This document shows, in pieces, positions 13,871 through 55,031 of a stretch of 64,000 bases of DNA. The notes below the pieces were generated by a model, which saw nothing but the letters and a program-made list of their open reading frames with translations, had not been told where the DNA came from and ran no database searches. The DNA is taken from contig OY727100.1 of the NCBI GenBank assembly GCA_963402885.1, forward strand, positions 3,596,001 through 3,660,000. Direction: 5' to 3'. The translations under genes and the position numbers were made by a program. The stretch's first letter is position 1; every line of letters starts with the position of its first letter. The stretch is from Antedon bifida (Eukaryota > Echinodermata > Crinoidea > Comatulida > Antedonidae).

Positions 13871-16800
13871 TTAATCAAAACCACTTAATTTTCGCCGCCT
13901 TATTATATTGTCTCTTAACACAATCTCGCGTTGAATGCACAAAATATCTTCCTTTCCCTCGGTGGGATGTAAGTCAATTTCAATGTGTTCTAAATCTTCA
14001 GCTTTTGCTTCCAACATATCTTTATGAATATCTTCTGATATGATCATTCTTATATAACGCAACTTTGGAAATAAATCAAATATTTTCGCTAATGTAAAAC
14101 TACTAATTGAAGATAGATCTATATTCGTTAGATCAACATATTCCCACCTAAATTCATTGTTATTAGGTCGTTGTAATATATTTTCAAGATTTTCACCTGT
14201 TAAACCATAATCCCTCCACTTTAATGTTTCTGAGCATCCGTATTCATCGTTTCTCATAACATACAATAATTTAAGTAGTGATTCGCCATCAATATTAGAA
14301 ATGTTATTATTCATTAATGATATTGAATTTTCTTTCAGTTCAATATTCATTTCTTTACATGTATTTAGCATGTCAGTAATAGTGGTACATACTAAATTGC
14401 AATTATTTATAGAAAGATGTTTTAAATTTGGAAATATTACAAAAATGTTAGCTAGTATACCGCCACTAATTGATGAGAGGTCTATATGCGTTAGAGAGAC
14501 ATTTTCCAACTTAAATGTGATGCTGTTAGGTCGTAATATATATTCAAGATGTTGAACTGTAAAACCATAAAGTCTCCATATTAACGTGTCTATGTCTAAC
14601 ATTTCATCGTCTAACGGGTATTGGGTAGTTTCCCTTATAACAGGTATTAATCTCAGTAACAAGTCACCACTAATACTAGAAAGGTTATTATTTGTAAGTA
14701 TTATTGTTTTTCTTTCCAATTCAACATTCATTTCATTACATTTATTTATCATATCAGTAATAGTGGTACCTACTATGCTGCAATTATTCATAGAAATATG
14801 GGTTAAATCTGGAAATATAACAAAAATGTTAGCTAGTATACTTCCATTAATTGATGATAAGCCTACATAATCCAAATCAATGGAACGCCATTTATTAAAC
14901 CTGTATTTCAAATGTGAGATCAGGAGATCTTGTAAGTGTTTGGCTGATAGATTATACTCGCTCCAAATTAGGCCTAAACTTTTAGGGAAACTGTAAATAT
15001 CAAAAATTGATTTTAAATTTGGTTTAGGTTTTAGTGCGGCTCCTATCAGCTTCCCGAGTGAATCTACATCAATTTCTGAAAGGTCATTTCCACTTAATCC
15101 AATATTAATTTCTTTGGACTCTAGATAATTTACAACATTTTCCTTCAACATACTATTTACATGCGTACTACTAGATATTTGTGTATTTAGCATATCAGAA
15201 ATAGTGCTACCTACTAAATTACAATCATTCATAGAAAGACGTGTTATATTTGGAAATATAATAAAAATGTTAGCTAGTGTACTTCCATTAATTGATGATA
15301 GGTCTACATTAGCCAAATAAAGACCAACGACTCCTACACATCTGTACTTCTGATGTGAAATCAGAAGAGCTTCTAAGTGCTTGGCTGATAGTTTATAATT
15401 GGTCCAAAACCCCCAGAATGTGTTTAAGTTTATCAGCTTTACAAGTAAATCCGTATCAATATCTGAAAGGTTATTTCCATTTAATCGAATGGTAATTTCT
15501 TTAGATTCTAGAAACTTTCCAACAGTTTCCTTCAACATACTATTTACATGCGTACTACTAGATATTTGTGTATTTAGCATATCAGAAATAGTGCTACCTA
15601 CTAAATTACAATCATATATATCAAGACATGTTATATTTGGAAATATAACAAAAATGTTAGCTAGTATACTTCCATTAATTGATGATAGGTCTACATTACC
15701 CAAATAAACATTATCGACTCTTAGAAATCTGTACTTCTGAGGTGAAATCAGAAGAGCTTGTAAGTGCTTGGCTGATAGATTATAATCTTTCCATTCTAAC
15801 CACCCGAATGTTTCTATGTTTATCAGCTTTACAAGTAAATCTGTATCAATATCTGAAAGGTTATTTCCACTTAATCCAATGGTAATTTCTTTAGATTCTA
15901 GATAATTTGCAACAGTTTCCTTCAACATACTATTTACATGCGTACTACTAGATATTTGTGTATTTAGCATATCAGAAATAGTGCTACCTACTAAATTACA
16001 ATCATGCATAATAAGATGTGTTATATTTGGAAATATAATAAAAATGTTAACTAGTGTACTTCCATTAATTGATGATAGGTCTACATTATTCAAATTAACA
16101 CGATCGACTCTTAGAAATCTGTACTTCTGAGGTGAAATCAGAAGAGCTTGTAAGTGCTTGGCTGGTAGCTTATAAACTTTCCATTCTAACCACCTGGATG
16201 TTTCTATGTTTATCAGCTTTACAAGTAAATCTGTATCAATATCTGAAAGGTTATTTCCACTTAATCCAATGGTAATTTCTTTAGATTCTAGATAATTTGC
16301 AACAGTTTCCTTCAACATACTATTTACATGCGTACTACTAGATATTTGTGTATTTAGCATATCAGAAATAGTGCTACCTACTAAATTACAATCATTCATT
16401 TCAAGAAGTGTTATATTTGGAAATATAATAAAAATGTTAGCTAGTGTACTTCCATTAATTGATGATAGGTCTACATTACCCAAATTAACACGATCGACTC
16501 TTAGAAATCTGTACTTCTGAGGTGAAATCAGAAGAGCTTGTAAGTGCTTGGCTGATAGCTTATAATCTTTCCATTCTAACCACCACCTGTTTGTTTTTAA
16601 GTTTATCAGCTTTACAAGTGAATCTGTATCAATATCTGAAAGGTCATTTGCTTTTAAGTCAATGGTAATTTTTTTGTACTCTAGATAGTTTACAACAGTT
16701 TTCTTCAACATACTATTTACATGCGTACTACTAGATATTTGTGTATTTAGCATATCAGAAATAGTTCTACCTACTAAATTACAATCATTTATTTCAAGAC

Positions 16801-19755
16801 GTGTTATATTTGGAAATATAATAAAAATGTTAGCTAGTGTACTTCCATTAATTGATGATAGGTCTACATTACCCAAATCAACACGATCGACTCTTAGAAA
16901 TCTGTACTTCTGAGGTGAAATCAGAAGAGCTTGTAAGTGCTTGGCTGATAGTTTATAATCGTTCCATTCTAACCACCACCTGTTTGTTTTTAAGTTTATC
17001 AGCTTTACAAGTGAATCTGTATCAATATCTAAAAGGTCATTTGCTGTTAAGTCAATGGTAATTTTTTTGTACTCTAGATAGTTTACAACAGTTTCCTTCA
17101 ACATACTATTTACATGCGTACTACTAGATATTTGTGTATTTAGCATATCAGAAATAGTGCTACCTACTAAATTACAATCATTCATTTCAAGACGTGTTAT
17201 ATTTGGAAATATAATAAAAATGTTAGCTAGTGTACTTCCATTAATTGATGATAGGTCTACATTACCCAAATCAACACGATCGACTCTTAGAAATCTGTAC
17301 TTCCGAGGTGAAATCAGAAGAGCTTGTAAGTGCTTGGCTGATAGTTTATAATCGTTCCATTCTAACCAGAATTTTTCAGAGTTTATCATTCTTACATGTA
17401 AATCTGTATCAATATCTGAAAGGTTATTTTCAATAAACTGCTTGGCTGATAGTTTAAAATCTTCCCATTCTAACCACCGCCTGTCTGTGTTTACGATTAT
17501 CAGCTTTACAAGTGAATCTGTATCAATATCTGAAAGGTTATTGTCTTGTAATTGAATGGTAATATTTTTTAACTTTAGATACTTTACTTCATGTTTTTTA
17601 AACATACTATTTATATGGGTACCATTTAATTTAGAAGATCTTAAATTAATACTTTTCAAATCTTTAGAAATATGAATTATGTGACTTAATAATGTTCCAT
17701 TTATATCTGTTAAATCATTGTTACTGAGATCAAGCGCCGTTAATTCTGAAAACACTGTACTGTTTTTACATTCGGTTATAATTTCTTTAATAAGCTTACC
17801 ATTATATACAAAACCACTGATTCTCATTCTGAGTAATTTATGGTTAGGAAAAATTTGAAAAAAACGACATAAATGTGTGCCATTCAAATAAGTAGTAAAA
17901 TAGAACTTGGACATAGTTTGATAAAAACAAAGTTCTTGTATTTGTTCACCTAAATGGAATCGTCTCCATTCGTCTGAGAGAATCTCAATAGCTATATCAC
18001 CCCATTTATTAATTAGATAAAGTAAATATAAATCACCTGTATCTTTATTACAATGTCGTTCTGTTTGTTGCAATATTATTATTGAAACGTGCGCTATTAC
18101 CCTGCAAATATCTTCAGATGATCTTTTTGATTCATCAATGAATTCCTTAACTTTCTTTATTACCAGTACTCTACTTTCATATAATTCTTTATGTAACAAT
18201 TTCAAATGCTGTATGAAGTGTAAATTGTTATTATAAAACGCTGTAAAGGAACGCGTTAAGTGTTTGACTTGTAACATTATTTCTTTCGATTTATTTATGT
18301 GCTCATCAAGTGATTCTAATACTTTTTCTTCGTGTTCTTGAGTTACATATTCGAAATATTTCGAAATTGAGTAATAATTAGAAGCATGGTCTACCAACCA
18401 GTGTTTTATGAGTTTGTCCGCGTTGGGACCTAGAAAACTAACTGTAAACACTCTAGACATATGTAGATAGTAGTTAGTTCTTATTTCTTCACTTTCGTCA
18501 ACATTTAAAATTTCAAATTGACTTTTATAAGACAAGTAAAATCCCGCTAGGGCCTCTGCCAATAACTTATGTGGATATCGGTAAGTCTCCGAAAAGGAAT
18601 CTTTATCATATGGAGGGTCTTTATAAACAAAACCTAATTTAAGAGATAAGTCAACTAAACTTTTATTTCCTGCTAGGCTTATCAAATCCAATTTATTAAA
18701 ATGAAGTAAATTTGTCTGTAGTTTTATGTAACTAATATGTCCTAATATTCGAAGTGAATTGTTAAACTCGTTGGGAAAGTCAGTAGATTCTTGTATTGCA
18801 TTAGAAACATTGTTCCTGTTAAGGTACTGATTTAAAATGCATCGAAAAATTTCTATAAAAAAGTGTTTAAAATGTTTAGGAATTATTTGTCCATGTTCCC
18901 ATATTGTACACATTTTAAGTAATAAAAAAGGGGATCGCAAGAGTTCAAATATTATTTTGTGATCGCCACCCCAAGAACTTGGATATAGCGAATTAAGTTT
19001 GAATTCATTAATCAATGAATCACCAAGAGCAGGGTTTTTAACAAATCTAAAATATTTTTGAATATATTTCTTGATGCTATTTTTAGAAAAGCCCTCTAGT
19101 TTTACATCTAAATCGCAATGATTAAGTAAGTTTTCAGCAAAACCCGGTCTTGATGTAATGATAACTGTGCTTTCCCTCAGTTCGTTGCCTTCTAATATCC
19201 TTTTTGGGCCCACAACTCCATATTCTAACTCATCTAATCCATCCAACAGAACAACTAATTCTTTGTCATGCCTGTCTATAAAGGTTTCTATAATTGTTTT
19301 ATCTTTCGGAAGACTAGTATTTTTACTAAAAATACCCATTCTATTTTCAAATTGCTCTACAATCATATCTGTAATTGTTTGACCTGCCTTGATATCTCTT
19401 GCATTTATAAGAAATAATATTTTACCGGCAAACGTAGAATCTGAATCAGTTGCCCAGTTGTAAGATATATACTGAAGTAAAGTTGTCTTACCAATTCCTC
19501 CATTTCCTGTCATACATACTTTACATGGGTCCACGGACTTGATAATGTGTAATAATTCTTTTAATGGTGTAGGACTTTTGATTTTTAAATCCAGGTATTT
19601 GTAGTTTAATATTTCTGGTTTCACTATTAGATCAGTAAACATCTGTGAAATGTTGTATTTATGTCTAAAATACATGTTCCACGTCGGCGGTTTCCTGTTT
19701 GGATCTTTAAATTTCCTTTTCTGTTCTGCTGTTAAAAAGTTTCGGATAATTTCAT
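13871..19755 (-). CDS. NACHT-LRR (NLR) receptor, giant terminal exon
   Basis: Open frame from a splice acceptor (cag at 19756-19758, phase 1) to a TAA at 13871: about 1,960 residues. The exon opens DEIIRNFLTAEQKRKF; the first in-frame Met is at 19675. Counting from that Met: Walker A GNGGIGKTTLL at ~57-67, Walker B ELVVLLDGLDELEYG at ~139-153, sensor motif VIITSRPGF at ~171-179, NACHT-associated helical region to ~600, then leucine-rich repeats to the C-terminus. NLRs are cytosolic sensors that oligomerise through NACHT and usually signal through an N-terminal death-fold domain. None is in this exon, so upstream exons must supply it; a DED exon of compatible phase lies at 53.6-54.2 kb. The exon is unusually long because six near-identical 130-residue LRR blocks are inserted (separate entry). 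No frameshift is seen, so it appears functional. Confidence 0.9.
15130..17440 (-). repeat. Six tandem 390-bp (130-residue) LRR-coding repeats
   Basis: The block 'catgcgtactactagatatt' recurs at about 15150, 15539, 15929, 16319, 16709 and 17105, so spacing is 390, 390, 390, 390 and 396 bp. Each unit encodes NDCNLVGSTISDMLNTQISS, THVNSMLKE, DIDTDSLVKLIN, LSAKHLQALLIS and NVDLSSINGSTLANIF with few changes. Two older diverged units lie toward the C-terminus (14390-15000). Reading frame is kept through all units. Confidence 0.9.
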
Positions 19756-20100: not shown

Positions 20101-20130
20101 ACATATACGTAAGTATTTACAGCGTTGAAA

Positions 20131-22860: not shown

Positions 22861-23710
22861 CTTTATAGTGTCTACATTATCCCAAGTAATAGGTTAAACG
22901 TTATCATGTCATTGTTTTATTTATTTACTTATTTATTTTTTAGACGTTTAATTTTACTCTAATAGGTTCTAATTAGTTCTAGCCTTCAATTAAATGAATA
23001 TTATGGAGGACTAAGCCTCATTGTGGCTTATTGTTTCCTCTACGAACAATGAGAATTTTTTAATGTTTTATAGTCATTAAATCATTGAATGCAAAAATAT
23101 AAAATATATTATTTTTTGGTAATTTAGATTGATTAGTTAATTTAATTTATTAATTGTAAAATAATTAAGTGGAGGATCAAACGTAAAGCCTTAAAAGTAG
23201 CTTTGTATGGGCTATCCTGGAAAATCTTTTATAAATGTATTTATTTTTAATGTCAGTAATTTATCACTTTGTATGTATTTTTATAATTATTTTCCAAAAT
23301 GAATTCAAATCAAATCAAAAGTAAAGATTCTGAAAAAACAATTGTTATTTAAATTTTACTTTACTAAATAAGTTCAACTTTATTTTTGAGTTGTATTCAC
23401 TTTGTTGGTGCACGAGATGAATCACCAGAATCGCTTCTCAATAATTATAGCCACAAACATTTGCAATGGTTTTGGGACATTTTCGCTTCCATTATGATGA
23501 AACGTTTATCTTTTATATGAATATTGAGTTCTCAAGCTCTCTTTCATGGCAAAAGTTTAATTTTTAATTATAAAATAGCACATAAACATTCAGTTTCTTT
23601 ATGACTATCCTGTTTCTATGTCTCATTACCTGCAACAATATTTCTTTTTTTTTTTATAGAATTCTTTCTTTTTTCATTACAATCATAAAAATTATCGTGA
23701 ATATACTTAC

Positions 23711-24628
23711 CTTCTGTCAATTGATGGTCTAAAAGTTGGTTTGAATCTGGCACTTTTTGTTCGCGTTCCCATATGGTACACGTTTTAAGTAACAACGAAG
23801 GGGATTTCAAGAGTTCAAATATTTCTTTGTGATCACCACCCAAATCTATTTCAGACTTCGAATTGAGTTTTAATTCCTCAATCAATGAATCACCAAGTGC
23901 AGTTTTGTTAACGAATCTAAAATATTTTTGAATAAATGTCTTTATATTTATTTTCGAAAACCCTTCTACTTGTACAGCTAAATCGCAATAATCAAGTAAG
24001 TCTTTTTCAAAACCTGTTTGTAATGTAATAATAACTGTGCTTTCTGTCAGTTCGCTTCCATCCAATATATTTACTAGTTCTTTGAAATCATCTTCTGACT
24101 CATCTAATCCATCTAACAGCACAATTAATTCCATGCTGTGTTTCTCCATAAACGTTTTTAAAATTGTTTCATCTTTAGGAAGACCGGTTTTTACATTAAA
24201 TGTATTCAGTTGAACTGTTTCTGCAATCGTATCTGTAATGGTATTTTCTGATTTGATGTCTCCCACGTTTATAAAAAATAATATTTTACCGGCTAACGTA
24301 GAATCTGAATCAGTTGCCCAGATGTAAGATAAATACTGAAGTAAAGTTGTCTTACCAATTCCTCCATTTCCGATCATGCATACTTTACATGAGACCATAG
24401 ACATCATTTTGCCTAATAGTTTTTCTAATGATGGGTGACTTTCAATTTGTAGATGCGAGTATTTATGCGCATTTAATATTTCTGTCGTTAGTATTGGATC
24501 AGTAAACATCTGTTGAATATTGTATTGTGAATTTTTCCGAACACTTGGGTTCAACGTTTGCCGTTTCCTGTTAGGATTTTGGAATTTCTTTTTCTGTTTG
24601 TCTGTTAAAAAGTTTCGGATAACTTCAT
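23711..24628 (-). CDS. NACHT cassette exon, copy 1
   Basis: 918-bp internal exon from acceptor 'accgtttcag' to donor ACAGAAG/GTAAGT, phase 1 at both ends, 306 residues. It has DEVIRNFLTDKQKKKF, IQQMFTDPI, Walker A GNGGIGKTTLL, Walker B ELIVLLDGLDES, and stops after LLKTCTIWERE with tail LLDHQLTEG. NACHT winged-helix and LRR parts are missing, so it is a module rather than a whole receptor. The sensor region reads VIITLQTGF where the terminal gene has VIITSRPGF. This copy has its own changes (FFINVGDIKSENT, LPKDETI). Downstream (leftward) is the terminal NACHT-LRR exon with matching phase. Confidence 0.85.
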
Positions 24629-24800
24629 CTGAAACGGTAAATAATTGTTATCCATTATTCCCCTGTATTGGCTTTATCTAGGCCTACTATCATTTTACAG
24701 TTGACATTCTGTAACTTGTTATATATCAACAATTCTAAACATGCTTATTGGAAAAAAAAAGTGTACAATCTACATTTTCTTTGATTTATCCAAAGCCTTC

Positions 24801-25175
24801 GATCTTAATATCATTTCGTAATTAATATCGATCTTAATATCATTTCGTAATTAATATCGATCTTAATATCATTTCGTAATTAATATCGATCTTAATATCA
24901 TTTCGTAAATATTATCGATCTTAATATCATTTCGTAATTAATATCGATCTTAATATCATTTCGTAATTAATATCGATCTTAATATTATTTCGTAATTAAT
25001 ATCGATCTTAATATTATTTCGTAATTAATATCGATCTTAATATCATTTCGTAATTAATATCGATCTTAATATTATTTCGTAATTAATATCGATCTTAATA
25101 TCATTTCGTAATTAATATCGATCTTAATATCATTTCGTAATTAATATCGAAATTAATATTATTTCGTAATTATTT
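24801..25175 (+). repeat. 29-bp satellite, unit-1 array
   Basis: About 13 copies of 'cttaatatcatttcgtaatt'+'aatatcgat' with few changes, lying inside the RT relic right after FFDLSKAFD. Confidence 0.9.
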
Positions 25176-25179
25176 TGTG

Positions 25180-25410
25180 ATTGACGAACAATAATTGTCG
25201 TATAAAACAACACATAGAAAAACATACATAAAATATTATATTAGTAAATTTAAACGATGTTTTTTCCATTCATTTCCTATTGTTATGTTTCAAAATATCC
25301 TTGGTCCAATACTTTTTAATATATCTATAAAAATTATCTCCCGAATCCTGCAAAATATTCATATTAGACATTACATTTGTATTTATTATGCAAATTATAT
25401 GTTTCACTAA
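25180..25410 (+). pseudogene. Decayed non-LTR RT relic in unit 1
   Basis: The encoded stretch NILGPILFNISIKIISRIL followed by IYYANYMFH resembles the LINE RT segment '(pqG)sILGPiLFnifIndi...YADD', with the catalytic YADD degraded to YANY. Motif A (FFDLSKAFD) sits before the satellite near 24780. Confidence 0.6.
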
Positions 25411-26797
25411 ACTTTTAAGATTCTTTAAGAATAATCATTAAATAGAAACGTCACACAGGTAATAATGTAGACAATATTGAATCTAAAAATGTTGGATTAT
25501 CCAAAAATGAAAAATATAATTATACGCTTGTAGAATGTGGTCAAGTACAGAAGCTCAAAGTGCGTTACATTTTTTAAAAGAATATACACAATAGTTTACA
25601 ATATTTATTACAATTATTAATACAATATCATTATTATTATTTAGTCATTTCGTTTGGTTATCTATTATATATATGCCTATTATACAGTATTACATCAAGT
25701 GTTATAGGCCTACTACTGCATGTTTAAATAAGTTATTAAATTTAATCTACACAATTTTTATTGCATTAATGTTTGCTGAGTTTCTTAAATGGTGGATTGG
25801 ACCAATCCTTAATTTACAGAGTTTTGGGCAGGAAAAGGAACCCTTTTCTTGATCTTACTGTACAACCAGGTGGCAATACAGATTTGTTTCAAACCATGTA
25901 ATATTCACAATTAACAAATAACGTTTTGGTATTCAGAAAGTCTTTTTCTTTTTCCACATCCCATGTTGTTTAAATTAATTAAAATTAATTAAAAACACTG
26001 TATGTACATTTTGGTACCTAAGTCTAATAGATTGTTGTACGTCAATTAAAATGAATATTATGGAGGACTCATTGTGTCTTTTGTTTCCTCTACGAACAAA
26101 AAGATTTTTGTTAATTTTTTAAATGTAATGTTATATAGTCATTAAATCATTGAATGCAAAAATTAAAATATATTATTTTTTGGTAATTTAGATTGATTAG
26201 TTAATTTAATTAATTAAATGTAAAATAATTAAGTGGAGGATCAAACGTAAAGCCTTAAAAGTAGCTTTGTATGAGCCATCCTGGAAAATCTTTTATAAAT
26301 TTATTTATTTTTAATGTCAGTAATTTATCATTTGTATGTATTTTTATAATGATTTTCCAAAATGAATTCAAATCAAATCAAAAGTAAAGATTCTGACAGA
26401 AACAATTGTTATTTAAATTTTACTTTACTAAATAAGTTCAACTTTATTTTTGAGTTGTATTCACTTTGTTGGTGCACGAGATGAATCACCAGAATCGCTT
26501 CTCAATAATTATAGCCACAAACATTTGCAATGATTTTGGGAGATTTTCGCTTCCATTATGATGAAACGTTTATCTTTTATATGAATATTGAGTTCTCAAG
26601 CTCTCTTTCATGGCAAAAGTTTAATTTTTAATTATAAAATAGCACATAAACATTCAGTTTCTTTATGACTATCCTGTTTCTATGTCTCATTACCTGCAAC
26701 AATATTTCTTTTTTTTTTTTATAGAATTCTTTCTTTTTTCATTACATTATTATTAATTTCAATTCGCAATCATAAAAATTATCGTGAATATACTTAC

Positions 26798-27715
26798 CTT
26801 CTGTCAATTGATGGTCTAAAAGTTGGTTTGAATCTGGCACTTTTTGTTCGCGTTCCCATATGGTACACGTTTTAAGTAACAACGAAGGGGATTTCAAGAG
26901 TTCAAATATTTCTTTGTGATCACCACCCAAATCTATTTCAGACTTCGAATTGAGTTTTAATTCCTCAATCAATGAATCACCAAGTGCAGTTTTGTTAACG
27001 AATCTAAAATATTTTTGAATAAATGTCTTTATATTTATTTTCGAAAACCCTTCTACTTGTACAGCTAAATCGCAATAATCAAGTAAGTCTTTTTCAAAAC
27101 CTGTTTGTAATGTAATAATAACTGTGCTTTCTGTCAGTTCGCTTCCATCCAATATATTTACTAGTTCTTTGAAATCATCTTCTGACTCATCTAATCCATC
27201 TAACAGCACAATTAATTCCATGCTGTGTTTCTCCATAAACGTTTTTAAAATGTTGTTATCTTTAGGAAGACCGGTTTTTACATGAAATGTATTCAGTTGA
27301 ACTGTTTCTGCAATCGTATCTGTAATGGTATTTTCTGCTTTGATGTCTCTCACGTTTAAAAAAAATAATATTTTACCGGCAAACGTAGAATCTGAATCAG
27401 TTGCCCAGATGTAAGATAAATACTGAAGTAAAGTTGTCTTACCAATTCCTCCATTTCCGATCATGCATACTTTACATGAGACCATAGACATCATTTTGCT
27501 TAATAGTTTTTCTAATGATGGGTGACTTTCAATTTGTAGATCCGAGTATTTATGCGTATTTAATATTTCTGTCGTTAATATTGGATCAGTAAACATCTGT
27601 TGAATATTGTATTGTGAATTTTTCCGAACACTTGGGTTCAATGTTTGCCGTTTCCTGTTAGGATTTTGGAATTTCTTTTTCTGTTTGTCTGTTAAAAAGT
27701 TTCGGATAACTTCAT
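26798..27715 (-). CDS. NACHT cassette exon, copy 2
   Basis: 918 bp, phase 1 to phase 1, same acceptor and donor as copy 1. Encodes 306 residues with intact Walker A and B and the altered VIITLQTGF sensor. The 21-bp intron insertion just after the donor ('attattattaatttcaattcg') is shared with copies 4 and 5, not with 1 and 3. Confidence 0.85.
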
Positions 27716-27887
27716 CTGAAACGGTAAATAATTGTTATCCATTATTCCCCTGTATTGGCTTTATCTAGGCCTACTATCATTTTACAGTTGACATTCTGTA
27801 ACTTGTTATATATCAACAATTCTAAACATGCTTATTGGAAAAAAAAAGTGTACAATCTACATTTTCTTTGATTTATCCAAAGCCTTC

Positions 27888-28497
27888 GATCCTAATATCA
27901 TTTCGTAATTAATATCGATCTTAATATCATTTCGTAATTAATATCGATCTTAATATCATTTCGTAATTAATATCGATCTTAATATCATTTCGTAAATATT
28001 ATCGATCTTAATATCATTTCGTAATTAATATCGATCTTAATATCATTTCGTAATTAATATCGATCTTAATATTATTTCGTAATTAATATCGATCTTAATA
28101 TTATTTCGTAATTTATATCGATCTTAATATCATTTCGTAATTAATATCGATCTTAATATTATTTCGTAATTAATATCGATCTTAATATCATTTCGTAATT
28201 AATATCGATCTTAATATCATTTCGTAATTAATATCGAAATTAATATTATTTCGTAATTATTTTGTGATTGACGAACAATAATTGTCGTATAAAACAACAC
28301 ATAGAAAAACATACATAAAATATTATATTAGTAAATTTAAACGATGTTTTTTCCATTCATTTCCTATTGTTATGTTTCAAAATATCCTTGGTCCAATACT
28401 TTTTAATATATCTATAAAAATTATCTCCCGAATCCTGCAAAATATTCATATTAGACATTACATTTGTATTTATTATGCAAATTATATGTTTCACTAA
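27888..28497 (+). repeat. 29-bp satellite (27888-28256) and RT relic (to 28497), unit 2
   Basis: Same order as unit 1; the RT relic encodes the same NILGPILFNIS...YANY remnant. Confidence 0.85.
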
Positions 28498-29864
28498 ACT
28501 TTTAAGATTCTTTAAGAATAATCATTAAATAGAAACGTCACATAGGTAATAATGTAGACAATATTGAATCTAAAAATGTTGGATTATCCAAAAATGAAAA
28601 ATATAATTATACGCTTGTAGAATGTGGTCAAGTACAGAAGCTCAAAGTGCGTTACATTTTTTAAAAGAATATACACAATAGTTTACAATATTTATTACAA
28701 TTATTAATACAATATCATTATTATTATTTAGTCATTTCGTTTGGTTATCTATTATATATATGCCTATTATACAGTATTACATCAAGTGTTATAGGCCTAC
28801 TACTGCATGTTTAAATAAGTTATTAAATTTAATCTACACAATTTTTATTGCATTAATGTTTGCTGAGTTTCTTAAATGGTGGATTGGACCAATCCTTAAT
28901 TTACAGAGTTTTGGGCAGGAAAAGGAACCCTTTTCTTGATCTTACTGTGATACAACCAGGTGGCAATACAGATTTGTTTCAAACCATGTAATATTCACAA
29001 TTAACAAATAACGTTTTGGTATTCAGAAAGTCTTTTTCTTTTTCCACATCCCATGTTGTTTAAATTAATTAAAATTAATTAAAAACACTGTATGTACATG
29101 TTGGTACCTAAGTCTAATAGATTGTTGTACGTCAATTAAAATGAATATTATGGAGGACTCATTGTGTCTTTTGTTTCCTCTACGAACAAAGAGATTTTTG
29201 TTAATTTTTTAAATGTAATGTTATATAGTCATTAAATCATTGAATGCAAAAATTAAAATATATTATTTTTTGGTAATTTAGATTGATTAGTTAATTTAAT
29301 TAATTAAATGTAAAATAATTAAGTGGAGGATCAAACGTAAAGCCTTAAAAGTAGCTTTGTTTGAGCCATCCTGGAAAATCTTTTATAAATTTATTTATTT
29401 TTAATGTCAGTAATTTATCACTTTGTATGTATTTTTATAATGATTTTCCAAAATGAATTCAAATCAAATCAAAAGTAAAGATTCTGACAGAAACAATTGT
29501 TATTTAAATTTTACTTTACTAAATAAGTTCAACTTTATTTTTGAGTTGTATTCACTTTGTTGGTGCACGAGATGAATCACCAGAATCGCTTCTCAATAAT
29601 TATAGCCACAAACATTTGCAATGATTTTGGGAGATTTTCGCTTCCATTATGATGAAACGTTTATCTTTTATATGAATATTGAGTTCTCAAGCTCTCTTTC
29701 ATGGCAAAAGTTTAATTTTTAATTATAAAATAGCACATAAACATTCAGTTTCTTTATGACTATCCTGTTTCTATGTCTCATTACCTGCAACAATATTTCT
29801 TTTTTTTTTATAGAATTCTTTCTTTTTTCATTACAATCATAAAAATTATCGTGAATATACTTAC

Positions 29865-30782
29865 CTTCTGTCAATTGATGGTCTAAAAGTTGGTTTGAAT
29901 CTGGCACTTTTTGTTCGCGTTCCCATATGGTACACGTTTTAAGTAACAACGAAGGGGTATTCAAGAGTTCAAATATTTCTTTGTGATCACCACCCAAATC
30001 TATTTCAGACTTCGAATTGAGTTTTAATTCCTCAATCAATGAATCACCAAGTGCAGTTTTGTTAACGAATCTAAAATATTTTTGAATAAATGTCTTTATA
30101 TTTATTTTCGAAAACCCTTCTACTTGTACAGCTAAATCGCAATAATCAAGTAAGTCTTTTTCAAAACCTGTTTGTAATGTAATAATAACTGTGCTTTCTG
30201 TCAGTTCGCTTCCATCCAATATATTTACTAGTTCTTTGAAATCATCTTCTGACTCATCTAATCCATCTAACAGCACAATTAATTCCATGCTGTGTTTCTC
30301 CATAAACGTTTTTAAAATGTTGTTATCTTTAGGAAGACCGGTTTTTACATGAAATGTATTCAGTTGAACTGTTTCTGCAATCGTATCTGTAATGGTATTT
30401 TCTGCTTTGATGTCTCTCACGTTTAAAAAAAATAATATTTTACCGGCAAACGTAGAATCTGAATCAGTTGCCCAGATGTAAGATAAATACTGAAGTAAAG
30501 TTGTCTTACCAATTCCTCCATTTCCGATCATGCATACTTTACATGAGACCATAGACATCATTTTGCCTAGTAGTTTTTCTAATGATGTGTGACTTTCAAT
30601 TTGTAGATCCGAGTATTTATGCGTATTTAATATTTCTGTCGTTAATATTGGATCAGTAAACATCTGTTGAATATTGTATTGTGAATTTTTCCGAACACTT
30701 GGGTTCAATGTTTGCCGTTTCCTGTTAGGATTTTGGAATTTCTTTTTCTGTTTGTCTGTTAAAAAGTTTCGGATAACTTCAT
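29865..30782 (-). CDS. NACHT cassette exon, copy 3
   Basis: 918 bp, phase 1-1. Differs from copies 2 and 4 at a handful of residues (e.g. ESHTSLEKLL, FELLNTPSLLL). Lacks the 21-bp intronic insertion, like copy 1. Walker motifs intact, sensor arginine absent. Confidence 0.85.
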
Positions 30783-30954
30783 CTGAAACGGTAAATAATT
30801 GTTATCCATTATTCCCCTGTATTGGCTTTATCTAGGCCTACTATCATTTTACAGTTGACATTCTGTAACTTGTTATATATCAACAATTCTAAACATGCTT
30901 ATTGGAAAAAAAAAGTGTACAATCTACATTTTCTTTGATTTATCCAAAGCCTTC

Positions 30955-31564
30955 GATCTTAATATCATTTCGTAATTAATATCGATCTTAATATCATATC
31001 GTAATTAATATCGATCTTAATATCATTTCGTAATTAATATCGATCTTAATATCATTTCGTAAATATTATCGATCTTAATATCATTTCGTAATTAATATCG
31101 ATCTTAATATCATTTCGTAATTAATATCGATCTTAATATTATTTCGTAATTAATATCGATCTTAATATTATTTCGTAATTAATATCGATCTTAATATCAT
31201 TTCGTAATTAATATCGATCTTAATATTATTTCGTAATTAATATCGATCTTAATATCATTTCGTAATTAATATCGATCTTAATATCATTTCGTAATTAATA
31301 TCGAAATTAATATTATTTCGTAATTATTTTGTGATTGACGAACAATAATTGTCGTATAAAACAACACATAGAAAAACATACATAAAATATTATATTAGTA
31401 AATTTAAACGATGTTTTTTCCATTCATTTCCTATTGTTATGTTTCAAAATATCCTTGGTCCAATACTTTTTAATATATTTATAAAAATTATCTCCCGAAT
31501 CCTGCAAAATATTTATATTAGACATTACATTTGTATTTATTATGCAAATTATATGTTTCACTAA
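30955..31564 (+). repeat. 29-bp satellite (30955-31325) and RT relic (to 31564), unit 3
   Basis: As in unit 1, about 13 satellite copies. Confidence 0.85.
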
Positions 31565-32951
31565 ACTTTTAAGATTCTTTAAGAATAATCATTAAATAGA
31601 AACGTCACATAGGTAATAATGTAGACAATATTGAATCTAAAAATGTTGGATTATCCAAAAATGAAAAATATAATTATACGCTTGTAGAATGTGGTCAAGT
31701 ACAGAAGCTCAAAGTGCGTTACATTTGTTAAAAGAATATACACAATAGTTTACAATATTTATTACAATTATTAATACAATATCATTATTATTATTTAGTC
31801 ATTTCGTTTGGTTATCTATTATATATATGCCTATTATACAGTATTACATCAAGTGTTATAGGCCTACTACTGCATGTTTAAATAAGTTATTAAATTTAAT
31901 CTACACAATTTTTATTGCATTAATGTTTGCTGAGTTTCTTAAATGGTGGATTGGACCAATCCTTAATTTACAGAGTTTTGGGCAGGAAAAGGAACCCTTT
32001 TCTTGATCTTACTGTACAACCAGGTGGCAATACAGATTTGTTTCAAACCATGTAATATTCACAATTAACAAATAACGTTTTGGTATTCAGAAAGTCTTTT
32101 TCTTTTTCCACATCCCATGTTGTTTAAATTAATTAAAATTAATTAAAAACACTGTATGTACATTTTGGTACCTAAGTCTAATAGATTGTTGTACGTCAAT
32201 TAAAATGAATACTATGGAGGACTCATTGTGTCTTTTGTTTCCTCTACGAACAAAGAGATTTTTGTTAATTTTTTTAATGTAATGTTATATAGTCATTAAA
32301 TCATTGAATGCAAAAATTAAAATATATTATTTTTTGGTAATTTAGATTGATTAGTTAATTTAATTAATTAAATGTAAAATAATTAAGTGGAGGATCAAAC
32401 GTAAAGCCTTAAAAGTAGCTTTGTATGAGCCATCCTGGAAAATCTTTTATAAATTTATTTATTTTTAATGTCAGTAATTTATCACTTTGTATGTATTTTT
32501 ATAATGATTTTCCAAAATGAATTCAAATCAAATCAAAAGTAAAGATTCTGACAGAAACAATTGTTATTTAAATTTTACTTTACTAAATAAGTTCAACTTT
32601 ATTTTTGAGTTGTATTCACTTTGTTGGTGCACGAGATGAATCACCAGAATCGCTTCTCAATAATTATAGCCACAAACATTTGCAATGATTTTGGGAGATT
32701 TTCGCTTCCATTATGATGAAACGTTTATCTTTTATATGAATATTGAGTTCTCAAGCTCTCTTTCATGGCAAAAGTTTAATTTTTAATTATAAAATAGCAC
32801 ATAAACATTCAGTTTCTTTATGACTATCCTGTTTCTATGTCTCATTACCTGCAACAATATTTCTTTTTTTTTTTATAGAATTCTTTCTTTTTTCATTACA
32901 TTATTATTAATTTCAATTCGCAATCATAAAAATTATCGTGAATATACTTAC

Positions 32952-33869
32952 CTTCTGTCAATTGATGGTCTAAAAGTTGGTTTGAATCTGGCACTTTTTG
33001 TTCGCGTTCCCATATGGTACACGTTTTAAGTAACAACGAAGGGGATTTCAAGAGTTCAAATATTTCTTTGTGATCACCACCCAAATCTATTTCAGACTTC
33101 GAATTGAGTTTTAATTCCTCAATCAATGAATCACCAAGTGCAGTTTTGTTAACGAATCTAAAATATTTTTGAATAAATGTCTTTATATTTATTTTCGAAA
33201 ACCCTTCTACTTGTACAGCTAAATCGCAATAATCAAGTAAGTCTTTTTCAAAACCTGTTTGTAATGTAATAATAACTGTGCTTTCTGTCAGTTCGCTTCC
33301 ATCCAATATATTTACTAGTTCTTTGAAATCATCTTCTGACTCATCTAATCCATCTAACAGCACAATTAATTCCATGCTGTGTTTCTCCATAAACGTTTTT
33401 AAAATGTTGTTATCTTTAGGAAGACCGGTTTTTACATGAAATGTATTCAGTTGAACTGTTTCTGCAATCGTATCTGTAATGGTATTTTCTGCTTTGATGT
33501 CTCTCACGTTTAAAAAAAATAATATTTTACCGGCAAACGTAGAATCTGAATCAGTTGCCCAGATGTAAGATAAATACTGAAGTAAAGTTGTCTTACCAAT
33601 TCCTCCATTTCCGATCATGCATACTTTACATGAGACCATAGACATCATTTTGCCTAATAGTTTTTCTAATGATGGGTGACTTTCAATTTGTAGATCCGAG
33701 TATTTATGCGTATTTAATATTTCTGTCGTTAATATTGGATCAGTAAACATCTGTTGAATATTGTATTGTGAATTTTTCCGAACACTTGGGTTCAACGTTT
33801 GCCGTTTCCTGTTAGGATTTTGGAATTTCTTTTTCTGTTTGTCTGTTAAAAAGTTTCGGATAACTTCAT
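32952..33869 (-). CDS. NACHT cassette exon, copy 4
   Basis: 918 bp, phase 1-1, almost identical in protein to copy 2 (ESHPSLEKLLGKM instead of LLSKM). Walker motifs intact; VIITLQTGF sensor. Confidence 0.85.
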
Positions 33870-34040
33870 CTGAAACGGTAAATAATTGTTATCCATTATT
33901 CCCCTGTATTGGCTTTATCTAGGCCTACTATCATTTTACAGTTGACATTCTGTAACTTGTTATATATCAACAATTCTAAACATGCTTATTGGAAAAAAAA
34001 AGTGTACAATCTACATTTTCTTTGATTTATCCAAAGCCTT

Positions 34041-35835: not shown

Positions 35836-36726
35836 CTTCTGTCAATTGATGGTCTAAAAGTTGGTTTGAATCTGGCACTTTTTGTTCGCGTTCCCATATG
35901 GTACACGTTTTAAGTAACAACGAAGGGGATTTCAAGAGTTCAAATATTTCTTTGTGATCACCACCCAAATCTATATCAGACTTCGAATTAAGTTTAAATT
36001 CTTCAATCAGTGAATCACCAAGTGCAGTTTTTTTAACGAATCTGAAATATTTTTGAATAAATGTCTTTATAATATTCATTTCCGAAAACCCTTCTACTTG
36101 TACAGCTAAATCGCAATGATCAACTAAGTCTTTTTCAAAACCTGTTTGTAATGTAATAATAACTGTGCTTTCTGTCAGTTCGTTGCCATCCAATATATTT
36201 AAAAGGTATTTGACATCATCTTCTGACTCATCTAATCCATCTAACAGCACAATTAATTCCATGCTGTGTTTCTCCATAAACGTTTTTAAAATGTTGTTAT
36301 CTTTAGGAAGACCGGTTTTTACATGAAATGTATTCAGTTGAACTGTTTCTGCAATCGTATCTGTAATGGTATTTTCTGCTTTGATGTCTCTCACGTTTAA
36401 AAAAAATAATATTTTACCGGCAAACGTAGAATCTGAATCAGTTGCCCAGATGTAAGATAAATACTGAAGTAAAGTTGTCTTACCAATTCCTCCATTTCCG
36501 ATCATGCATACTTTACATGAGACCATAGACATCATTTTGCCTAATAGTTTTTCTAATGATGGGTGACTTTCAATTTGTAGATCCGAGTATTTATGCGTAT
36601 TTAATATTTCTGTCGTTAATATTGGATCAGTAAACATCTGTTGAATATTCAACGTTTGCCGTTTCCTGTTAGGATTTTGGAATTTCTTTTTCTGTTCGTC
36701 TGTTAAAAAGTTTCGGATAACTTCAT
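35836..36726 (-). CDS. NACHT cassette exon, copy 5 (mosaic)
   Basis: 891 bp, phase 1-1. Relative to the others it lacks 10 codons near its start (PSVRKNSQYN region) and has one extra codon (EMNIIKTF). A tract at about 35975-36215 encodes VKYLLNILDGNELTES, VDHCDLAVQ, FRFVKKTALGDS and EEFKLNSKSDID. These positions are partly closer to the terminal gene, while sequence on both sides is nearly identical to copies 2-4. Frame and splice sites are intact. Confidence 0.85.
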
Positions 36727-36896
36727 CTGAAACGGTAAATAATTGTTATCCATTATTCCCTTGTATTGGCTTTATCTAGGCCTACTATCATTTTACAGTT
36801 GACATTCTGTAACTTGTTATATATCAACAATTCTAAACATGCTTATTGGAAAAAAAAGGTGTACAATCTACATTTTCTTTGATTTATCCAAAGCCT

Positions 36897-37421
36897 ATTA
36901 ATATCGATCTTAATATTATTTCGTAATTAATATCGATCTTAATATCATTTCGTAATTAATATCGATCTTAATATTATTTCGTAATTAATATCGATCTTAA
37001 TATCATTTCGTAATTAATATCGATCTTAATATCATTTCGTAATTAATATCGATCTTAATATTATTTCGTAATTAATATCGATCTTAATATCATTTCGTAA
37101 TTAATATCGATCCTAATATTATTTCGTAATTATTATCGATCTTAATATCATTTCGGAATTAATATCGATCTTAATATCATTTCGTAATTAATATCGAACT
37201 TTCGTAATTAATATGTGATTGACAAACAATAATTGTCGTATAAAACAACACATAGAAAAACATACATAAAATATTACATTAGTAAATTTAAACGATGTTT
37301 TTCATTCATTCCTATTGTTATGTTTCAAAATATCCTTGGTCCAATACTTTTTAATATATCTATAAAAATTATCTCCCGAATCCTGCAAAATATTCATATT
37401 AGACATTACATTTGTATTTAA
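36897..37421 (+). repeat. 29-bp satellite (36897-37215) and RT relic, unit 5
   Basis: More irregular satellite units, including one joined directly to 'ccaaagcctattaatatcga'; the relic is shortened. Confidence 0.8.
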
Positions 37422-38080
37422 TATGCAAATTATATGTTTCCATAAACTTTTAAGATTCTTTAAGAATAATCATTAAATAGAAACGTCACATAGGTAGACA
37501 ATATTGAAGCTAAAAATGTTGGATTATCCAAAAATGAAAAATATAATTATACGCTTGTAGAATGTGGTACAGAAGTACAGAAGCTCAAAGTGCGTTCACT
37601 TTTTTTTAAAGAATATACACAATAGTTCACAATATTTATTACAATTATTAATACAATATCATTATTATTATTATTTAGTCATTTCGTTTGGTTATCTATT
37701 ATATATATGCCTATTATACAGTATTACATCAAGTGTTATAGGCCTACTACTGCATGTTTAAATAAGTTATTAAATTTAATCTACACAATTTTTATTGCAT
37801 TAATGTTTGCTGAGTTTCTTAAATGGTGGATTGGACCAATCCTTAATTTACAGAGTTTTGGGCAGGAAAAGGAACCATTTTCTTGATCTTACTGTACAAC
37901 CAGGTGGCAATAAAGATTTGTTTCAAACCATGTAATCAATATTCACAATAACAGATAACGGTTTGGTATTCAGAAAGTCTTTTTCCTTTTCCACATCCCA
38001 TGTTGTTTACATTTTGCAACACTACCTTATAGTCTAATGGATTGTTGCAATGAAATCTTAAGTTATGTATCGATACTTAC

Positions 38081-45016: not shown

Positions 45017-48000
45017 TTATTCTCTCCTTTCATTCATTGAAAGCATGGCATTAAACCCTGTGCGTTTCTTGGCATTTGCCCAGACTTCGAATGCTCTCTC
45101 ATACTCAAAGTCTTCAATTTCTGGTGATTCCAAGTACAAGATCATTAGATTATGCATATGATCGACTGTCAGCATATTTCTGTATTCGGATTTGATGGCG
45201 TTGTATCCTGATATACCTCTTTCGCAACTTACAGATGTCACTGGTAATGTGAGGCCAATAGCTGCCAGTTTGCTTAGGTTTGGGTAAGCTTCTCTGTTTT
45301 CATTAATGAACTGGGACATTACTTCTGCCAGGTCACACATAGCAAACCTATCACTTGCTAAAATGAACTTGAGAAGATGCCATTCGGCTCTTGCTTCCTC
45401 TTGACAAATTATATGTGCGTATGTCGTTAGGAGTGTATTTACATGAGCCTCCTGAACATCACTGGTCATGTGCTTTAGATGTTTTGGGTACAACACCATG
45501 AACGCATCCATTATCTTCATGTCTGGAAAAGTAGATGAAAGCTGTGCAACAACTGCATCCACAAAAGCAATAGTTGCTTCTTTAAATTGCTGCCGGTGCT
45601 TTGCAGAGTCCTTCAAGTCATGTGTCTTATAGATCAGATACCCAGAACTACATACTTCGGCCGGTACGATACTTTCGATCTCTTGTGAATACGGACCTGG
45701 AGTAGTAAGTAACGATTGTATAGCTAATATAGCTGCATCAATTTGGGGTTTGATATGACCGTAAGTTACACTGTTTTTCTGCATCGACAGAGAAAGCAAG
45801 CCTAAAATGCCAATAGCATCTGCCAGAAAGTGGGTCATCCTGACAAATTTTACTGTCGCCATCTGTGTCATTACACCATGTAATAATGCTCTTCCTTCTG
45901 CATTCCTTTCAATACCTGCAGCCCCCAAAGATGATATGACACTACATATGCATCCTGTTAGTGCTTGTACGCTGTTGCTAAATGAAAGCCATCTGGTAAA
46001 AAAAACTTGTCTAATCTTCTTTGCTCTCTCCTGGTTTAGGTCTTTGCTGTTGGCAAGTATTCTTTGAAACTTAGGTGAAAATTTCAATGCTTTTGCAAAT
46101 GTGTTTAAGATTGCTATGTACTTAACAATGTATGGCACCTTGTTTGCAGCTTTCTCACTAGCAAGCTGTAATCGGTGTGCCATACAGTGTGTTGTCACCA
46201 GGTGGGGAATATCTTTCTTGAATCTACAATAACAAGTAAGATTGTTTTCTGTTATTCATTATTAAATCATTTCTAAAACAATAATTTGTCAATTGTCAAA
46301 TACGTAACCGATTTACTTGCCTTGTAGCTACTCCTTTGCGTACACCCATCATCACACTTGCGCCATCAGTGGCTAAGCCAACCATGTGGGTCTTGTCTAG
46401 ATTACCAACTGCCTCATTTGCCACTCGGTATATTTCATTGGAATCAGTTATTTGCAGTTGGCAGGCTTTGAAATATTTGGTTTTAACTTTCCCATCAATA
46501 TCCACATAACGGATATATATAATCTAGTAGTAGACAATAAATTATATCAATTACTGCAGTAATCTCTAATTTATTTATAATAATAGCATGACGGGTAATA
46601 ATAATAATGGGTATCATATAAAACTACTAATTAAATAAATTCATGTGCAGATTGTTGCTTCAGTCCATATAAAAAAAGCAGACATCCTGGCCTGGAATGG
46701 AGGTTTATGATTACTTAATTAATTAATAGGCGATTGTTAGAGGGTTATCTTTACAGAATGCAGTATAGGATTTTCTCAAAGATAATTCTTCTTTTAGTCA
46801 TTCATTCTTTATTTAATTATTTTTTATTTTATCTTGACAGACTTTTATGACAGTACTGTACTGTATTTAGATTTTGGAAAAACTATAATCGTATAAAAAC
46901 ACACACCAATATTGACAAATCACTGACATCGGTAGCTTCATCCATCTCCAGTGAATAGAATGGATAAGGGCTTCCTGCTCTTTCTGACAACAGATTTTCA
47001 GAAATCACTGTTGCAAGTGTCTCATAGATCTCATTAATGGATTTATTGTGCTGGTAATGTGGGTTCCCTTTTGATGGACGTAGTGCCTGTAAGCTTGTAA
47101 CACCCTAAGAAAATAAAATGCTTAAAATAGTAAGACTGATTTAAGAATTTTAATGAATAACTGTATATTTAATAGAGTTGATACCATTATACTTACATTG
47201 AATATTTGTAGTCTGATCAGTTTTGAGTTCTTGCTAGATGGTATAGCTTCTTGTGATTGGGTTAGCACTGTTGCCATTTGTGCTATTATGGCGGATTTTG
47301 TTGCATCATATGCTTTTGCTTTAGCATGCCTCATGTCTGATACAAGGCCAGGAATTTTCTTAGCATCTTTGTGGTCGACTCCCATCTGGTGTTTTACAAA
47401 GTCATCTTTTTTTGGATTATTTGTAAATTTTCCACTAACGTAGATGTTTTTTTTATGAGCCGCTACACAGTCTTTACATTTATATGTTTTCTCATCTTCA
47501 ATGAGCAGCCATGGAAATTCCGTCAGCCAACTACGTTTAAATGACCTACGTGGTTTGGTTGGACAGGTTGCTTGGCTTGTGTTTGCTGACTGTTGGTCTG
47601 CTTTATCTGAAGTAAGAGGAAAGACATTGGCAGGATGTCGGGATTCAGTAGGGGACATTGGAGCATCAGTGGGGGACATGTGAGCATCAGTTGAGACAAT
47701 TATAGGTGGTGACACATCTTGTTGGCAATGTGAAAAAGGAGATACCCGTTCATGATGTGAATCTGATGAAGTAGGTGGTTGGATGGTCCCTATAGTAAAG
47801 AACTTGCCGAGTTTGGATTGCTTGTTTCCTTTTCCTTTCTTGCTTACAGTGGTCGAAACATCAATGCTACTTCTTTTTAAGGTTGGCCAACACTCAGTAG
47901 ATATTACTGGAGCAACATGATTTGGTTGGTAGATTGCGCCCTGCTCAATGCTAAAATTCCCATCCCTGGTCCACAGCACAATAATATCGAGATTACGGGT

Positions 48001-48732
48001 AGAGTAAGGATTTTTACTTGTGTCATATTTTCGTTTTGACTGCGAGTCAAAATGCTGCAGTGGATGAATTACAGCATTCATAAGTGGACGATGTGTAAAA
48101 GGAAGAGATGGATAAAGGGAAATTACATCGCGTCCTAAAACGGTGCTGAGAGCCATAAGATGCAAGATTGAGCCCCAACGTTTGTCATTATAGGTTTGAG
48201 TGGCTTCATGTTCTAGACCTTTCAGCATACCAGACTCCAGTGCCACCTCCAATGAGTCCGGGCCCAAAACAGAGTGAAGAAGTGTATCTTTGTCTATACC
48301 AATGGACCTACACGCAACCTCCAAGTGATAGTGTGTAAAATATTCATGAACATTTTGTGTCAACTCTACTGCACAATCTTTCCGGAGGGAAGAAGCTAGA
48401 TTTTCGTTACCTGAAAAAAACAAACTCAGGAACTAAACTAAAATAGAACTAGAATAGAACTGTAAATAACTTTAAATGGTGTTTTAAATGTGTTTTCTAT
48501 GAAAGTACTGTAACTGTTCTAATAAAAATGATATACATATGATGGATTTTCAACAAAATTTAATCATATAAAGTTATTTCCCAGAATACATACCTGCAAT
48601 AAGAATAGAAACACTGTTGAACAAACAGTTTCCATTGCCTGTAGATTTGATTGCTTTAAACTCATGTGCACCTGATACAAAGTTTGTAATATCTGTTGGG
48701 ATAAGGTTGCTGGAAAATCTGTCCACCTCCAT
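45017..48732 (-). CDS. OTU-domain/TTF zinc finger/hAT transposase, five coding exons
   Basis: Exons leftward: ...48732-48594 (start MEVDRF), 48410-47197, 47104-46907, 46523-46321, 46224-45017. Exons 1-2 give an OTU-like cysteine protease start with catalytic-type STGNGNCLFNSVSILIAG. Then comes a TTF-type zinc finger (RSWLTEFPWL, YKCKDC, FVKHQMGVDH). The hAT RNase H core follows: SLEMDEATDVSDLSILV (first Asp), HMVGLATDGASVMMGV (second Asp), THCMAHRLQLA, FFTRWLSF. The C-terminal dimerisation domain contains LPVTSVSCERGISGYNAIKS. Exon 4 to 5 uses a GC donor (AG/GCAAGT). The last acceptor gives a 1-nt frame mismatch at about 46200, unless an AG 7 nt further in is used. It is therefore either marginally broken or spliced unusually. 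Confidence 0.8.
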
Positions 48733-54999: not shown

Positions 55000-55031
55000 C
55001 TTTTATGTTTCCTTTCCTCGCCACTTGCCAT
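55000..55031 (-). CDS. Start exon of the DED gene
   Basis: ATG at 55031 encodes MASGEERKHK then AG/GTAAGA, phase 2. Joined to the DED exon acceptor (1 leading base) it gives KHK-S-NADRLRDF with no frame break. Short charged N-terminus directly before a DED is usual for death-fold adaptors. Confidence 0.7.

Follow-up and report, generated by a model that had tools for sequence, protein, structure and literature searches.

Proteins that combine DED and NACHT domains occur in amphioxus, sea urchin, and Nematostella, according to the accessible part of PMC2575513. For another echinoderm, Apostichopus japonicus, the accessible parts of two reports describe one NLR with the NACHT domain inside the cell and one with it outside; in the latter, AjNLR-new, the NACHT is reported as extracellular and the Ig domain as intracellular (PMC8699970, PMC13133943), which, as far as these parts go, provides a precedent for a NACHT domain beyond the membrane. 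Variation of a different type is described for tandem duplicated exons, which, in the accessible text of PMC6071210, often turn mutually exclusive. The mechanisms of exclusion given there are a too short intron and mixing of U2 and U12 sites (both in clusters of two), frameshift decay, and competing RNA structures, with a paired-stem model named as well, and decay cannot act on exons with multiple-of-three lengths or in clusters of more than three (PMC6071210, same text). Among the open-licence literature matches listed, judged by titles and the starts of abstracts, none described crinoid NLRs of the plan reported below or arrays of NACHT exons.

The window analyzed here is a stretch of 64,000 nucleotides from Antedon bifida (contig OY727100.1; C13:3596001-3660000 of the 315.6 Mb assembly covered by genome searches). 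Its minus strand carries what looks like one of two tandem crinoid genes for a membrane-anchored NLR, with a predicted order of DED, linker, hydrophobic helix, FN3 domain, NACHT, and LRR-like repeats. The exons of this gene, the tandem array lying in it, and the sister gene are as follows.

55031-55000, minus strand: tentatively proposed start exon, 32 nt, ending in phase 2, with an ATG and a donor present
54157-53640, minus strand: DED exon, 518 nt, ending in phase 1
43466-43404, minus strand: linker exon B, 63 nt, phase 1-1
40315-40247, minus strand: linker exon A, 69 nt, phase 1-1, tandem duplicate of linker B
39150-39064, minus strand: exon of the predicted transmembrane segment, 87 nt, phase 1-1
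38505-38335, minus strand: first half of FN3, 171 nt, phase 1-1
38224-38081, minus strand: second half of FN3, 144 nt, phase 1-1, ending in ...LTE
22993-38008, minus strand: tandem array, five units each about 2.9-3.1 kb long, lower end approximate
36726-35836, minus strand: array exon N1, 891 nt, NBD-HD1
33869-32952, minus strand: array exon N2, 918 nt
30782-29865, minus strand: array exon N3, 918 nt
27715-26798, minus strand: array exon N4, 918 nt
24628-23711, minus strand: array exon N5, 918 nt
19755-13871, minus strand: terminal exon with a full NACHT, then a helical region and LRR-like repeats, 5885 nt, entered in phase 1, stop at its end
C13:3706450-3674983, same strand as the window gene, outside the window: sister gene in which the exon set recurs with four array exons

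The exon borders, lengths, and phases given by an earlier sequence-only reading of the window are all present. Every exon has GT..AG borders, and all exons after the DED exon are in phase 1 at both sides. Joined in order, the exons form a single open frame of 3843 aa with the sole stop at its end. That reading also held that any subset of the exons splices in frame. By computation, 992 of the 1024 subsets of the ten middle exons do remain open; the other 32 are those in which the DED exon is joined directly to the second FN3 half, where the final T of the former and the initial AG of the latter produce a TAG. The phase-1 symmetric exons are not independent of each other: the five NACHT exons are one copied unit, and linkers A and B belong to a single duplication (81% alike across 594 columns, flanks included). 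The symmetry of the array exons at the 5' side exists by descent, since their acceptor is the acceptor of the terminal exon. Because a single FN3 domain is split between two exons, neither of them is a module in its own right.

The order of modules is matched by crinoid relatives. A search with the terminal exon yielded 198 proteins, and among the best 120 of these 198, ranks 1-22 are occupied by proteins of Antedon mediterranea and Anneissia japonica. Two A. mediterranea proteins, P0001 (1082 aa) and P0002 (1081 aa), consist of a DED, one linker, a hydrophobic helix, FN3, and one NACHT in the same order as in the window, and tblastn places both on the window exons at the borders listed above. 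Thus, the head exons and the terminal NACHT-LRR exon belong to one gene, the ancestral plan had one NACHT, and the five exons of 891 or 918 nt are extra. The view of the locus as one receptor gene rather than a row of separate genes therefore stands. The models of P0001 and P0002 stop soon after the NACHT, so that the repeat part rests on other relatives. Their start differs from the 32-nt start exon of the window, for which no counterpart was found in the sister gene; within the 8.5 kb upstream of the sister DED exon, the best ungapped match to it covers 22 of 37 bases. A single NACHT was seen in all 22 crinoid relatives scanned, three of which had contributed to the building of the NACHT model. 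The best matches of P0002 in the genome of the window are 58-59% identical. A search for the window protein or a poly-NACHT relative gave only P0001 and P0002. Another search had 0 of 7985 candidates at E 0.001; its list was probably filled by hydrophobic-helix words, and this is not a valid negative.

In the terminal exon, N1, N4, and N5, which were scanned, the NACHT domain scores 61.5-68.5 bits against a Pfam cut-off of 26.7 (E of 1.1e-16 for the terminal exon, 3.3e-17 for N1, and 2.8e-18 for N5). The DED of the window (Pfam E 3.3e-5) is below the curated cut-off, and that of P0003 is above it (37.8 vs 35.9 bits); a profile including relatives matches DED chains of caspase-8 and c-FLIP, and the window DED is 55-60% identical to those of P0001 and P0002. 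The two FN3 exons jointly match the Pfam fn3 model (PF00041) at 1.3e-4, with 22.5 bits against a cut-off of 25, and are 70-74% identical to P0001 and P0002, whose own matches to PF00041 (4.3e-4 and 7.7e-3) are also under the cut-off. As residues 215-331 of the P0002 model, the FN3 region, have pLDDT <50, the assignment of FN3 rests on these Pfam matches. Foldseek with the P0002 model returns NLRs first. The Pfam scan of the head listed FN3 and DED and no Ig model at E up to 1.

The mean hydropathy over 19 residues encoded by the transmembrane-segment exon is 2.39, and hydropathy predicts one hydrophobic helix before the NACHT in the window protein, P0001-P0003, and P0005. If this single helix spans the membrane, the DED and the NACHT would lie on its opposite sides. 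Neither flanking charges nor counts of N-glycosylation sequons in these five proteins point to a consistent side: the numbers of basic residues among the 20 before and the 20 after the helix are 5/1 in the window protein, 2/2 in P0001, 3/1 in P0002, 7/5 in P0003, and 2/2 in P0005.

The terminal exon is 72% identical to P0001 across the first 294 residues. Its repeats are about 390 bp long with a spacing of 387-393 bp. Taken alone, the repeat part is below every Pfam LRR cut-off (best, LRR_At5g56370 with 17.8 bits vs 27), and comparison with solved structures gave no LRR chain, only two chance-level matches with E of 0.2 and 0.28. It aligns at about 28-32% identity to P0004 (E 2e-129) and P0006 (E 6e-43), both of which have LRR models over the cut-off. 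We call these repeats LRR-like; they are probably LRRs by descent with a degenerate sequence.

The tandem array is well beyond chance. Its copy starts are spaced by 2.88-3.09 kb, many stretches of 250-300 nt are 98-100% identical, the first unit less so, and in each unit the intron preceding the exon contains a 29-bp minisatellite. Introns ahead of the array exons and of the terminal exon measure 1.35-3.96 kb, and those preceding array exons 2-5 diverge by 0.2-0.5%. Gaps specific to individual units (203 and 22 bp in introns, 10 codons in N1) are observed, and the edge units are distinct from the middle ones. The array exons fall into about three encoded variants (first, middle, and last): pairwise, N2, N3, and N4 are 1-4 replacement changes apart, and N1 and N5 differ from the other array exons by about 10-24.

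Each array exon begins at the normal acceptor of a NACHT exon, encodes the NBD-HD1 part only, and stops ahead of the winged-helix part. Thus, the modules that had been named NACHT do belong to this domain by Pfam but are truncated. Internal exons of about 900 nt are unusually long. In a structure comparison with the predicted fold of an array module, NLRC4 and NOD2 rank first. The S-R pair of TSR, invariant in 13 aligned relatives, is absent from all five array exons. The loss of the TSR arginine was considered as proof of a dead module and rejected, as NLRC4 also differs at this position in the alignment. Past the array donors, the frame stops after 18 codons in N1, N2, and N4, after 31 in N5, and after 48 in N3, and these read-through tails vary among the copies.

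The donors of the array exons, AAG/GTAAGT, score 12.4 bits with a simple matrix, the same as the donor of the second FN3 half; weaker donors are those of the DED exon (5.1 bits), the transmembrane-segment exon (6.2), and the first FN3 half (6.9). The donors match the U2 consensus. Array exons end in HQLTE and the second FN3 half in TLTE, and the joins of FN3 to an array exon, of one array exon to another, and of an array exon to the terminal exon all read LTE-DE[IV]IRNFL. In four paralogs, the exon before the NACHT ends in NYELTE, NHNLTE, KNKLTE, or DHMLTI, i.e., in LTE in three cases of four and in LTI in one, where the ends were placed at the matching string and C16d has an alternative donor a few bases downstream. 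The 15-mer ACAGAAGGTAAGTAT spans the donors of the second FN3 half and of all five array exons; with up to two mismatches, it has six matches in the window, nowhere else (0.22 expected). From the shared LTE ends and this 15-mer, each array exon appears to carry the usual lead-in of the family to a NACHT exon. Together with the strong donors, this end would suit end-to-end splicing of array exons.

We also considered whether the array-exon tail derives from the second FN3 half and rejected this: despite the common 15-mer, the alignments are no better than those of shuffled sequences (for the tail and the intron start, 1132 and 859 of 2000 shuffles were as good; in a repeated test of the tail, 2129 of 3000). 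When the array tails were compared with the tails of four pre-NACHT exons of paralogs, 81 of 3000 shuffles were as good for the summed score, and 91, 120, 437, and 2608 of 3000 for the exons taken singly, so that only two of the four fall below 5%. This test was devised after the sequences had been seen, and the control exon LB gave a sum of 19 vs 23. The alignment of the array-exon tails to family exons is only suggestive.

Phase-1 borders extend to other members of the family. With borders read by eye, the DED exons of the C9 and C16 paralogs end in phase 1 in seven cases of seven, and of nine paralog NACHT exons, eight carry AG where phase 1 requires it, C16f being the exception. A counterpart of the transmembrane-segment exon with similar borders is found in paralog C9-2, and weak hydrophobic matches (E 0.1-0.7) closely precede the NACHT at four places on C16, the NACHT being broken at one of these. 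FN3 exons of this type occur at four places in the genome, the fourth being C13:1559565-1560301 (52% and 49%). Phase-1 modularity thus looks like a family rule, and the varied heads of relatives, some containing FN3 and some lacking it, are consistent with modules, heads among them, having been exchanged from gene to gene during evolution.

The sister gene is 92% identical to the window gene in the DED exon, 100% in linker B, 97% in linker A, and 98% and 99% in the FN3 halves. Its transmembrane-segment exon (96%) is 90 nt long, in frame, and has the same GTGATG donor. The array of this gene contains four exons (891, 918, 918, and 918 nt), of which the first is identical to N1 (891/891), and the frame of its terminal exon stops after 1326 residues. 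The upstream flanks of the two genes drop to 85-90% identity and then to patches of 67-76%, and the downstream flanks have no match of at least 400 bp. From this divergence we regard the sister as a gene duplicate, not a second haplotype placed in tandem. In the genome search, the array is found only in this pair of genes. N4 has 34 matches, nine of them full-length at 94% or more, all in the two C13 genes; the remaining 25 cover only part of the exon, and identity does not exceed 78% in any that is longer than 200 bases. All nine array exons of the two genes are open and have GT..AG sites, and the first, middle, and last types of module are retained in both.

Rates of change between the two genes were estimated with each variable site counted once and gapped columns left out. 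The LRR part of the terminal exon has replacement and synonymous rates of 0.025 and 0.023, respectively, and the terminal NACHT of 0.0097 and 0.0166; the next region has one change of each kind. In the DED, there are 21 replacement changes per 409 sites and nine synonymous changes per 101 sites. Among the nine array exons, changes that the two genes do not share, outside the two common module types, comprise six synonymous and six replacement ones, against a neutral expectation of a 79.6% share of replacements (P = 0.021). All variable array sites together (12 synonymous, 30 replacement) show no departure from neutrality (P = 0.13), and the contrast between the array and the LRR region is not significant (P = 0.061). 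Differences of the first type are 13 replacement to six synonymous, those of the last type 11 to 0, and those among N2-N5 are near neutral in kind. The array exons evolve faster than the terminal NACHT (relative-rate chi-square of 5.9-22 in nine tests with shared data). The lineage of the array exons is separated from the terminal exon by about 0.5 synonymous changes per site and has acquired no stop or frameshift, and in neutral simulations at 0.25 per site none of 5000 sequences kept the frame, although part of this history may lie within a complete gene. Copies 2-5 are so alike that their open frames carry little weight. The evidence for a present function of the array is real but thin.

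The reading we favor is that a transcript may include a variable series of array exons, anywhere from zero to the whole set, ahead of the complete NACHT-LRR part and after FN3; to this we give slightly less than an even chance. The open frame of the joined exons, the junctions in P0001 and P0002, the nine open array exons, the strong donors, and the recurring junction residues favor it. The single NACHT of the relatives scanned, the faster evolution and lost S-R pair of the array exons, and their length of about 900 nt, large for internal exons, weigh against it. The chief competing view is that the array is a recent, functionless tandem expansion, with FN3 normally spliced to the terminal NACHT-LRR exon and the array skipped or spliced as noise. 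The single NACHT of all relatives scanned, the near identity of copies 2-5 including introns, the near-neutral kind of the differences among N2-N5, the loss of the conserved S-R pair, and the evolution faster than in the terminal NACHT are all consistent with this view. Nevertheless, we consider it rather unlikely, since the strong donor is kept in nine copies of nine, the array is retained in both genes, the recent changes are six synonymous to six replacement, and the frame has outlasted a distance at which no simulated sequence stayed open. The array exons could also serve as alternative ends: if the intron following one of them were retained, the product would be a membrane-bound decoy, a DED-TM-FN3-NBD protein cut short before the LRR part. 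The continuation of the frame past the donors for 18, 31, or 48 codons permits this, but the strength of these donors and the variability of the read-through tails make it improbable. An error of assembly, in the number of array copies or in the sister gene itself, is suggested by the many stretches of copies that are up to 100% alike. This is very improbable given the unit-specific gaps, the distinct edge units, the differences between the two genes in the number of units, in the DED, and in the length of the terminal frame, and the divergence of their flanks upstream and downstream.

The sequence-only reading favored combinatorial choice as in Dscam, with one array exon, or the terminal NACHT alone, in each transcript. 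The locus indeed contains tandem homologous exons flanked by constant exons, every exon is symmetric, three types of module are present, and duplicated exons in tandem are frequently mutually exclusive in the accessible text of PMC6071210. However, choice among N2-N4, which differ by so few replacements, would yield little diversity, and the terminal exon already provides a full NACHT. The phase symmetry and the lengths of 891 and 918 nt disable exclusion based on the frame. A short intron and U2/U12 mixing, which in the same text of PMC6071210 concern clusters of two, do not fit the introns of at least 1.35 kb and the U2-type donors of this locus. Complementarity of the docking/selector kind between three unique intron stretches and the unit intron did not rise above shuffles in a crude blastn comparison (39, 31, and 9 of 40 shuffles as good; blastn is a weak tool for this). 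Near-identical copies, multiple-of-three lengths, and, as far as blastn shows for these three stretches, the lack of pairing speak against the Dscam-type choice, which we hold to be hardly probable.

Returning to serial splicing, the following scenario can be suggested. In the intron before the NACHT-LRR exon, a chimeric exon has been amplified, to five copies in the window gene and to four in its sister. With serial splicing, a single protein would carry extra NBD-HD1 modules between FN3 and the full NACHT-LRR part. The terminal NACHT-LRR would sense and switch, and the added modules, devoid of the winged helix, LRR, and the TSR arginine, could serve as internal partners or decoys and thereby adjust the threshold of assembly. 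The DED would bring in a caspase-8-like partner. The extreme form of this scenario is a poly-NACHT receptor, in which a single membrane-anchored chain has as many as five NBD-HD1 modules in series before the complete NACHT-LRR, their number depending on splicing as well as on unequal crossing-over in the germ line, possibly with the NACHT beyond the membrane; we propose it tentatively and with some doubt. If it is true, a single chain of adjustable length would already contain part of the oligomerization that other NLRs accomplish with separate chains. In the case of serial splicing, the variable would be the repeat number of an ATPase module, not the sequence diversity of a sensor, and we know of no other NLR tuned in this way. 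Array exons number five in the window gene and four in its neighbor, and none were seen in other paralogs. This gradation makes the genes a natural series and offers a clean test of phase-symmetric immune exons.

Compared with metazoan NLRs (NLRC4, NOD2, NLRP3, and DED-NACHT NLRs), the crinoid gene likewise has a STAND-type NACHT, LRR-like repeats after it, and a death-fold N-terminus, but it adds a predicted hydrophobic helix and FN3 between the DED and the NACHT, as well as extra NBD-HD1 exons in the intron before the NACHT. With Dscam1 and other mutually exclusive clusters, as described in the accessible parts of PMC6071210 and PMC8042237, it shares tandem copies of an exon and part of its intron within one gene, whereas the crinoid copies are nearly identical, have multiple-of-three lengths, and give no docking/selector signal by blastn. 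Frame-preserving exon modules are also known from alternative splicing of the LRR exons of human NLRP3 (PMC6642158, accessible part). There the LRR exons vary; the crinoid gene instead keeps its repeats within a single exon and has multiple copies of an NBD-HD1 exon. A parallel among echinoderms is provided by AjNLRC4 and AjNLR-new, which, according to the accessible parts of their reports, combine NACHT with a beta-sandwich domain and with membrane-spanning segments, as is predicted for the crinoid proteins; they have Ig domains and two such segments, and AjNLRC4 lacks CARD and LRR. The crinoid genes differ in having a DED, FN3, one predicted helix, LRR-like repeats, and the exon array. Even with a silent array, the crinoid DED-TM-FN3-NACHT-LRR family would add to the few reports of membrane-bound echinoderm NLRs.

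Reordering of the FN3 module is seen in paralog C9-2 of locus L024 (C9:16781689-16777200, minus strand), where the two FN3 exons are reversed and the order runs from the second half through the TM exon and the first half to NACHT. A copy of the second half was not found in the stretch between the FN3 first half and NACHT of this paralog. A possible source of the module is a pair of FN3 exons on the contig that carries the window (C13 of the searched genome, G000):

G000:C13:1559565-1560301, plus strand: two FN3 exons whose dividing point matches that of the window FN3; identity 52% and 49%

No NACHT was found near this pair among the matches listed in three genome searches.

A 29-bp minisatellite (window 24770-25330 and matching places in the other units) lies in the intron preceding each array exon; the intron of the terminal exon is without the expanded repeat. 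The terminal exon itself contains a longer repeat, and in the sister gene, the second copy on C13, the frame stops inside this part of the exon:

Window 15044-17296, minus strand: six repeat copies in the terminal exon; spacing ~390 bp; 89-91% alike over 300 nt

Transposase matches and a zinc-finger match are present in and near the window gene:

Window 45017-48432, minus strand, within the DED-linker intron: hAT-type transposase frame (Dimer_Tnp_hAT, 4.4e-9) and a frame with a zinc-finger match (9.4e-6, below the cut-off)
Window 6454-8602, minus strand: MULE-type transposase match downstream of the window gene; 3e-4, below the cut-off

Further fragments were detected on C13, and the first two listed may together be what is left of a third gene:

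Window 60216-60434, minus strand: NACHT fragment; DNA identity 71-75% to the array and terminal exons
C13:3666516-3665994: DED exon outside the window; 74% identity
C13:3713221-3712730: fourth remnant

Elsewhere in the genome, contig C7 (G000) has a large predicted crinoid NLR cluster at 31.9-36.0 Mb: the genome search scored 103 NACHT matches, and by a count from its listing at least 46 of them fall within this interval.
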